Origin: Sphingomonas quercus
Lineage (GTDB): Bacteria > Pseudomonadota > Alphaproteobacteria > Sphingomonadales > Sphingomonadaceae
Length of the DNA: 64,000 nucleotides
Assembly: GCF_018863195.1 (NCBI RefSeq)
Contig: NZ_JAHKRT010000005.1
Location: 1-64,000 of the forward strand
Direction: 5' to 3'
Shown here: positions 37,285-39,153 of the stretch, one piece after another
How positions within the stretch are numbered: position 1 is the stretch's first letter
Layout: each line of letters opens with the position of its first letter
The notes under the pieces: model-generated
Database searches by the model: none
Seen by the model: the letters and a program-made list of their open reading frames with translations, nothing else
What the model was told of the DNA's origin: nothing
Position numbers and translations under genes: made by a program

Positions 37285-38600
37285 TTCGCCGCGAGCCTCG
37301 CCACGGCCTCGTCCGGAGCAAGCTCGATCGTCTCGCCGGTGGCGCGGCGCTTGAGCTCGACGACGCCGCGCTCCAGCCCCTTCGGGCCGATGACGATCTG
37401 CCAGGGCAGGCCGATCACGTCCATCGTCGCCAGCTTCTGGCCGCCCGACAGCGAACGATCGTCGTAGAGCGTCTCGACGCCGGCGGCGTTCAGTTTCGCG
37501 TAGAGCGCGTCCGCCGCCGCCGTGCAGGCCGGGTCATTGTCGCGCATATTGACGATGCCGACCGCATAGGGCGCCACCGCGTCGGGCCAGATGATGCCCT
37601 TGTCGTCGTGGCTCGCCTCGATGATCGCGCCCATCAGGCGCGACACGCCAACGCCATAGCTGCCCATGTGCGGCACCACCTCGGCGCCGTCCGGGCCCTG
37701 CAGCTTGAGGCCCATCGCGCCCGAATATTTGGTGCCGAAATAGAAGATATGACCGACCTCGATGCCGCGCGATTGACGCAACGCCTCGCCGGCCTCCGCC
37801 TCGCGGGCCGGATCGCGCTTCTCGTCGGTGGCGGCATAGTCGGCGGTGTGGCCCGAGACGATCGCCTGGAGGGCGGCGGCATCATCGAAGTCGACCGAGC
37901 TCAGATCCGCCGGCCGCTCCCAGTTGGCATGATAGAACACATCGCTTTCGCCCGACGGCGCGAGGATGATGAACTCGTGGCTGAGGTCGCCGCCGATCGG
38001 GCCGGTATCGGCCTGCATCGGGATGGCGCGCAGGCCCATCCGCGCGAAGGTGTTGAGATAGGCGACGAACATGCGGTTGTAGCTGGCCCGCGCGCCGGCC
38101 TCGTCCATGTCGAAGGAATAGGCGTCCTTCATCAGGAATTCGCGGCCGCGCATCACGCCGAAGCGGGGGCGCACCTCATCGCGGAACTTCCACTGGATGT
38201 GGTAGAGCGAGCGCGGCAGGTCGCGATAGCTGCGGGCATTGTCGCGGAAGATGGCGGTGATCATCTCCTCATTCGTCGGCCCGTACAGCATCTCACGATC
38301 ATGCCGGTCGGTGATGCGCAGCATCTCCGGGCCATAGGCATCGTAGCGCCCGGATTCGCGCCACAAGTCGGCGGATTGCAGCGTCGGCATCAGCAGCTCG
38401 ATCGCGCCGGATCGATCCTGTTCTTCCCGCACGATCTGCTCGATCTTGCGCAGCACGCGATAGCCGAGCGGCAGCCAGGCATAGATGCCCGCGGCGGTCT
38501 GCCGGACGAGGCCGGCGCGAAGCATCAGCTTGTGGCTGATGATCTGCGCATCGGCAGGCGTTTCCTTGGTGACGGGCAGGAAATAACGGGTGAGGCGCAT
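37281..38600 (-). CDS. proS: prolyl-tRNA synthetase (short alphaproteobacterial type)
   Basis: A 439-residue class II synthetase. It begins [20 protein letters not shown] and contains motif 2 ([27 protein letters not shown] region, about residues 135-160) and motif 3 ([17 protein letters not shown], about 340-356), followed by the anticodon-binding domain. It lacks the large editing insertion of the E. coli enzyme, which is the usual form in alphaproteobacteria. It charges tRNA-Pro in the cytoplasm. The start at 38600 is taken over an upstream in-frame alternative because the N-terminus then matches the family; the ribosome-binding site (AAGAGA) is weak. It is first in a proS-lolC-lolD unit. 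Confidence 0.96.
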
Positions 38601-39027
38601 CGGTCTCTTTATCGGCCGGAGGAATGATCGGCTTGAGGCTGTAGGGCGCGCGCCGGCAATCGACAAGCATCAGCCTGCCCGCGCGATCTGTGGCGCAAAC
38701 GCCACAAGCAGGGCATTATCTCAACATACCCTAGGTTTGGCTCATGACAGAACTGCGAATCCAGCGTAGCCAAGCTCTCACGAAACGCAGGTCGATGGCC
38801 GTGGTTCGGGGAGGCAAGGGCTCCGCCAGGATCGTCGAAAGGGGGCGATCCAACAAGCGCGTCGAGCCCAAGCCCCAAAGGGGGCTGGCGAGCATTCGTC
38901 ACGCGGGCGCCCGGGTCGAGAAATCGGCCCGGGCGTTTGTGTATCTGGGCCTCATCGTGGATCGATATCGGCCGTTGAGCCTTTCCTGCGCCTGAACGTT
39001 CCGGTCGGGCGAGACAGGAGAATGCGC
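38601..39027. other. structured intergenic region with hairpin cluster (possible small RNA or leader)
   Basis: No protein gene is convincing in these 427 bases. Several perfect inverted repeats are present: TGTGGCG/CGCCACA (38689-38706), GGATCG/CGATCC (38829-38834 with 38846-38851), AGCCCC/GGGGCT with a 4-base loop (38871-38876 with 38881-38886), and CGCCCGGG/CCCGGGCG (38908-38915 with 38928-38935) followed by TTTGT on the plus strand. The last three, packed in about 110 bases and ending in a GC-rich stem plus a short T-run, look like a structured RNA or a leader for the small gene at 39028. No known RNA family was recognised. Confidence 0.4.
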
Positions 39028-39153
39028 ATGGCCAGCCAGCCCCCCGGCGACCCGATCCCGACCCCGGTCGATCCGATGCCGACGACCCCCACCGATCCGA
39101 TCCCGCCCACGCCCAGTGATCCGGTGCCGACCCAGCCCACGCCGCCGGATTGA
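39028..39153 (+). CDS. small proline-rich repeat protein
   Basis: A 41-residue open frame beginning MASQPPGDPIPTPVD. It consists almost entirely of DP-x-P units of 7-8 residues (DPIPTPV, DPMPTTPT, DPIPPTPS, DPVPTQPT, PPD). AGGAG stands seven bases before the ATG at 39028; an in-frame ATG at 39022 is closer to it. It has no signal peptide or membrane segment and is acidic and certainly unfolded. Function is unknown. The strong ribosome-binding site and the regular repeat argue for a real gene, but its size leaves doubt. Confidence 0.5.
   Translation: MASQPPGDPIPTPVDPMPTTPTDPIPPTPSDPVPTQPTPPD

Follow-up and report, generated by a model that had tools for sequence, protein, structure and literature searches.

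A candidate structured small RNA of the sphingomonads with a conserved promoter and upstream DNA element

The window analysed here is a stretch of 64,000 nucleotides from Sphingomonas quercus (contig NZ_JAHKRT010000005.1). Between two of its housekeeping genes, proS and pyrG, lies what is, on comparative sequence evidence, almost certainly an independent structured small RNA gene of about 160 nt (38780–38940, plus strand), the 5′ end being placed from the promoter and the 3′ end from the terminator. A proline-rich open reading frame follows downstream (39022–39153, plus strand; 43 aa from 39022 or 41 aa from 39028). The initial annotation described four perfect stems in this region as a single hairpin cluster. 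All four are present and three are perfect, namely TGTGGCG/CGCCACA (38689–38706), GGATCG/CGATCC (38829–38851) and AGCCCC/GGGGCT (38871–38886), whereas the fourth (CGCCCGGGTCGA/TCGGCCCGGGCG, 38908–38935) is 92% complementary over 12 and is followed, as described, by TTTGT. The last three span 107 bases, in line with the figure of about 110 given for them, and belong to the RNA; the stem at 38689–38706 is a DNA element upstream of the promoter, and the idea of one cluster holds only without it. A mechanical call yields a plus-strand ORF of 83 aa (38744–38995), yet length differences among the ten genus homologues are not multiples of three.

The plus strand at 38744–38945 folds to −104.5 kcal/mol, compared with −79.0 ± 4.5 for 200 dinucleotide shuffles (z = −5.66; 0/200 shuffles as good). 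The minus strand at 38670–38945 also beats its shuffles, to a lesser degree (z = −3.27). Comparison with relatives provides the locus with its own promoter, a covarying fold and its own terminator, and together with the conservation of the locus these features back the proposal that the small RNA is independent and ends at an intrinsic terminator. Base-pair covariation in relatives, on which the initial annotation had let its proposal stand or fall, was found, and six helices show heavy compensatory change. Among 64 sequences, 94.2% of cells pair, and double-change cells number 319, compared with 87 ± 10 after shuffling and at most 59 when the structure is slid. Matches at 79 named loci, 10 rows of which are identical to training rows of the model, give similar values (94.1% of cells paired; 388 double-change cells against 104 ± 11 shuffled and at most 73 slid). 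Removal of these 10 rows, and of rows shorter than 115 nt or lacking the GGUUC motif, leaves 60 independent rows, with 93.8% of cells paired and 300 double-change cells against 78 ± 10 shuffled. The alignments of 64, 79 and 60 rows were all fitted to the covariance model.

From the 5′ side, helix P1 is formed by GGCC (38797–38800) and GGCT (38883–38886), with 96.9% and 97.7% of cells paired. It is followed by the near-invariant segment GGTTCGGGGA (38803–38812), which tends to be unpaired when sequences are folded singly (mean unpaired probability 0.58 in 63 sequences and 0.59 in 70). A variable arm then occupies 38813–38874 and comprises P2 (GGC/GCC), P3 (GGGCTC/GAGCCC), P4–P5 (CGC..GGATCG/CGATCC..GCG) and a G-rich loop; by a crude criterion, the loop is G-rich and unpaired in 52 of 126 members. 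The joining segment AAAGGGGG (38877–38884) is conserved according to the conservation line of the alignment, and its mean unpaired probability is 0.62 in 48 sequences and 0.54 in 49, where the motif pattern was found. The 3′ domain consists of the P6 hairpin, GGCGA-GCAT-TCGTC, with the conserved ACGC after it (38887–38900; 98.4% and 99.7% of cells paired), and of the intrinsic terminator stem-loop with its TTT (38908–38938; 10 model pairs, 100% and 99.7% of cells paired). P6 and the ACGC are also near-invariant in the 64-sequence conservation line, and 7 of the 10 terminator pairs carry double changes in each of two alignments (64 sequences; 79 rows). A simple terminator scanner did not report the 38908 terminator, whose T-run is three bases. 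Outside the helices, the most conserved parts are GGUUCRGGGA and AAGGGGG.

Support for the helices differs with the type of alignment. Every P2–P4 pair of the covariance model shows double changes in the 64-sequence and 79-row alignments, counts that rest on alignments fitted to that model. When 72 of the 79 rows were aligned by MAFFT, blind to structure, RNAalifold again gave the terminator and P6 (consensus energy −78.7 against −32.7 ± 3.5 for shuffled columns); the P2–P4 arm was not recovered from this alignment, and the alternative offered in its place pairs GCCCC with GGGGG, a helix without any double-changed pair. Folding of the arm without any alignment was applied to 114 distinct sequences (131 minus 17 that lacked anchors or were too short) and gave a mean z of −2.92, with 88 sequences below −2 and none above 0. 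On this evidence the variable arm is judged to be real, with the GCCCC–GGGGG pairing as a possible alternative.

Upstream of the RNA, a −35 hexamer ATGACA (38744–38749) and a −10 hexamer TAGCCA (38767–38772), both on the plus strand and separated by a 17 bp spacer, would place the start of transcription near 38780. A −35 resembling ATGACA and a −10 resembling TAGCNN, spaced by 17 or 18 bp, occur at 59 of the 64 loci; the arrangement [ACG]TGAC...TA of these 59 is also present at 48 of the 60 independent named loci. Farther upstream lies the element CTGTGGCGCAAACGCCACA (38688–38706, plus strand), a perfect dyad here and a probable activator site, whose family pattern TGTKRC-N8-CACA is present at 62 of the 64 loci and 54 of the 60 independent ones; in mononucleotide-shuffled upstream sequences it occurred 3 times in 3200. 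Measured start to start, element and −35 are 54 bp (9 loci) or 55 bp (48) apart in the 57 of 64 loci that have both. In the 46 independent loci with both, the distance is 54 (1), 55 (43) or 56 (2) bp. Since its distance to the small RNA promoter is fixed, the element is assigned to that promoter and not to proS. By comparison with class I activation, the geometry suggests an activator at the dyad, centred near −82; such a regulator would bind there and switch on the sigma-70-type promoter.

The distribution of the RNA was followed with sequence searches and three covariance models, R1 built from seven genus sequences, R2 from 64 sequences and R3 from 19 RNAs of a hisI–comF location alone. A 605-base query matched all ten genomes of the genus, own included; in four of the other nine, the matched part began at 38761 or 38776, close to the predicted start, and reached the terminator at 38938, and in the remaining five it mainly covered the 3′ third. 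R1 detected the RNA in 122 of 298 Sphingomonadaceae genomes (48 of 96 genera) and in 102 of 296 genomes of an order sample, and R2 in 208 of the 298 (77 of 96 genera), mostly once per genome. R3, run inside Sphingomonadaceae only, gave matches, some of which may be false positives, in 225 of 298 genomes and 80 of 96 genera; among the matches listed, three genomes had two and the others one. At least 82 of the 96 genera have a match by R2 or R3 (g55 and g76 have R2 matches and are absent among the R3 matches listed). A class-wide search with R2 gave 12 matching genomes in 289; five of them belong to the family, and the seven that do not score 27–33 bits. The outside-family matches are taken for chance, because none of the five flanking genes tested was present at the five of these seven loci that were examined. 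Weak matches near 30 bits within the family are likewise not all safe. An exact-pattern scan of named genomes returned at least 118 stretches, 80 of which were searched with R2. In 73 of these, R2 scored at least 43 bits; each of the records concerned bears the name of Sphingomonas or a relative or is an unassigned proteobacterial MAG. The other seven included one Sphingomonas MAG (37.7 bits), one contig-end stretch (25.5 bits) and an actinomycete locus where R2 reached 27.7 bits away from the pattern; there was no R2 match at the Streptomyces, Solibacteraceae, Microbacterium and gammaproteobacterial loci among the 80. The sequence searches thus indicate an RNA restricted to the sphingomonad group, with about one copy per genome in most sampled genomes.

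The RNA appears in two genomic homes. At least one of lolC, proS and pyrG lies in the fetched stretch at 62 of the 64 first-set loci and 59 of the 60 independent named loci. Another 45 matches, most of them weak, divide into 22 between hisI and comF, 14 near lolC, proS or pyrG and 9 near none of these five genes, the five outside-family loci being among the 9. The hisI–comF loci (L099–L103, L105, L108, L110, L111, L115, L251, L253, L256, L257 and L259–L266) belong to other genera. Their RNAs have a longer and different arm and a similar upstream element, close to TTGTTGCACGATAACCACA in 20 of 21 tested with up to three mismatches allowed. They carry, with variation, GGTTCAGGG-like, GAGGG and GGGG segments, TCGTCACG and the terminator. 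In the window, R2 matches 38795–38940 (102.2 bits, E 6.3e-24, the window's own sequence being among the 64 of the model), and R3, which contains only hisI–comF RNAs, matches 38796–38939 (38.7 bits, E 7.6e-8). The R3 matches listed from the family search include many at the lolC/proS locus, for example in G001, G004 and G099, although the S. quercus place does not appear among them. Because models from either home find the RNA at the other, the two are read as one RNA that moved, not as two.

Explanations that dispense with an independent RNA fit these observations poorly. The initial annotation also offered a structured leader for the gene at 39028. That the RNA serves the small proline-rich gene (39022/39028) as a leader, attenuator or riboswitch would agree with a proline-rich ORF lying behind it at 8 of the 9 genus loci inspected, that of S. 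quercus among them. However, a strong terminator stem with heavy double change stands between RNA and ORF, and elsewhere the RNA persists beside lolC, proS or pyrG or between hisI and comF. With two unrelated neighbourhoods, no constant downstream gene and a terminator before the next gene, a cis-acting leader or riboswitch was rejected, and we regard this reading as very improbable. It is at least as hard to credit a reading in which nothing but DNA-level features is present, a proS operator and a transcription terminator, and no RNA has a function. The element does lie between proS and the divergent small RNA promoter, and a terminator is present; yet the spacing of the element is fixed relative to the small RNA promoter, the internal helices covary and the segments between them are near-invariant.

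Known families offer no match. At the gathering score, Rfam 15 gave 0 matches in the window, and 20 homologue loci gave one tRNA only; with E up to 10, region 38590–39060 returned three chance-level matches. 6S RNA (RF00013), which resembles this RNA in length, in a copy number of about one per genome and in family-wide presence, was considered and rejected, with no match at E ≤ 10 in 38590–39060 and a 6S-like locus elsewhere in the genome. That locus, the sole RF00013 match in the S. quercus genome (G000:C14:117510-117665, L015), scores 38.7 bits against a cut-off of 46.4 and is a divergent 6S-like RNA. Such 6S-like RNAs were found in 18 of 21 genomes, own included, and 7 of these 18, again including our genome, fall below the Rfam cut-off. 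The part of the open literature consulted gave no description of the RNA under study. Since it is structured, occurs in most of the genera sampled, has a fixed regulatory site and lacks an Rfam entry, it clearly qualifies as a candidate new RNA family.

Few regulatory RNAs are reported for sphingomonads in the open literature searched. SuhB, a trans-acting small RNA of Sphingopyxis granuli TFA, is likewise from a sphingomonad and is 61 nt long (PMC6563040); it probably differs from our RNA, which, like its counterparts at the 20 homologue loci, matches no Rfam family at gathering score. In Zymomonas mobilis, ten Zms RNAs with coordinates and 679 predicted candidate regions have been published (PMC6970203; see also PMC7064620). 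A Zymomonas-like genome carries an ortholog of our RNA with the same neighbours, element and promoter; this ortholog (L088) is without the GGTTC motif and keeps the AAGGGGG segments, a P6-like hairpin, the element and the promoter. It was matched to none of the ten Zms RNAs of Table 2 (PMC6970203). A hopene-cyclase landmark and gene numbers place it on the Zms coordinates in a rough region only, and Zms6, whose coordinates give it 304 nt, maps to a plausible region and could conceivably be the same RNA (PMC6970203). The ortholog may have been detected before as an unnamed published candidate or under another name. The nearest precedent for the proposed function is CrfA, a carbon-starvation RNA sponge of Caulobacter crescentus with a G/A-rich loop, whose partners SisA–D, of the alphaR8 family, carry 5′-UUUCCUCCCU-3′ (PMC12559287). 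Like CrfA, our RNA is an alphaproteobacterial small RNA, and its G-rich segments can pair with the SisA–D core UUUCCUCCCU. It departs from CrfA in the number of its G-rich segments, of which there is more than one, and in its P6–terminator 3′ domain. This comparison is one of described features.

Because its G-rich segments are conserved and CrfA/SisA provide a precedent in Caulobacter, a trans-acting role by base pairing is proposed for the RNA, and we give it roughly even chances on the sequence features. In such a role, the G-rich segments (GGUUCRGGGA, the arm loop and AAGGGGG) would pair with pyrimidine-rich RNAs, GGUUCGGGGA and AAAGGGGG being the sites through which pairing would work, and the partners would be C-rich anti-Shine–Dalgarno small RNAs, held as by a sponge, or mRNAs. 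Several observations count against pairing: the G-rich segments are only moderately unpaired in single-sequence folds (0.54–0.62), the arm loop is G-rich and unpaired in no more than the 52 of 126 members given above, no partner or target RNA emerged from the analysis, and the terminator has a short U-tract, which we take not to be a typical Hfq tail. Pairing runs of at least six, G–U allowed, with the alphaR8 core UUUCCUCCCU were found in 64/64, 59/70 and 19/19 RNAs; the set of 70 named rows, used also for unpaired probabilities and promoter geometry, includes rows identical to training rows. The core ranked 16, 33 and 30 among 252 permutations in the three RNA sets, and 10, 23 and 10 of 150 random permutations paired as well. 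For a 7-nt part of the core, 26, 33 and 63 of 150 were as good, which is no better than chance, and the exact core is absent from the window. These comparisons do not mark out the alphaR8 core as the partner, and the sponge idea is a lead, not a result. A sponge of alphaR8-type RNAs specifically, as CrfA is, seems unlikely. The fuller picture is equally doubtful; it would be of a family-wide, activator-controlled RNA whose two or three G-rich docking segments sequester alphaR8-type RNAs, an independently built counterpart of CrfA with its function kept across both homes.

Pairing of the G-rich segments directly with C-rich sites in mRNAs, not with other small RNAs, can be entertained only tentatively. 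Their conservation is seed-like, and the best-pairing 10-mers of five U and five C held C-runs, for example UCCCCCUUUU, rather than the alphaR8 core; against this, nothing specific favours any mRNA. Mimicry of a Shine–Dalgarno site on the ribosome was rejected, as 56, 49 and 33 of 150 permutations matched the pairing of the 16S tail. It is also possible, if rather doubtful, that the RNA works through a protein, bound or titrated by its G-rich segments and P6-ACGC-terminator end in the manner of CsrB-type or 6S-type RNAs. Such a role would suit a molecule with several G-rich motifs that resemble one another, a nearly constant 3′ domain and family-wide conservation at about one copy. A CsrB/RsmZ-type sponge of CsrA was rejected, however, with PF02599 in 0 of 21 genomes, own included (controls: match in 3/14). 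The 6S-like RNA sits elsewhere in the genome, and no other candidate protein was identified.

Sphingomonads are used for pollutant breakdown and ethanol production, and an RNA kept across most of their sampled genera is likely to be a core regulator. The upstream dyad gives a handle on the putative regulator. The pattern CTGTKGC-N8-CACA occurs at 8 sites in the S. quercus genome, compared with 3 for the reversed pattern. By eye, a second such RNA was not seen in the 420 bases after each of the seven other sites. Some of the sites (L240–L247) appear, also by eye, just upstream of genes, and the other sites may mark further targets of the same regulator.
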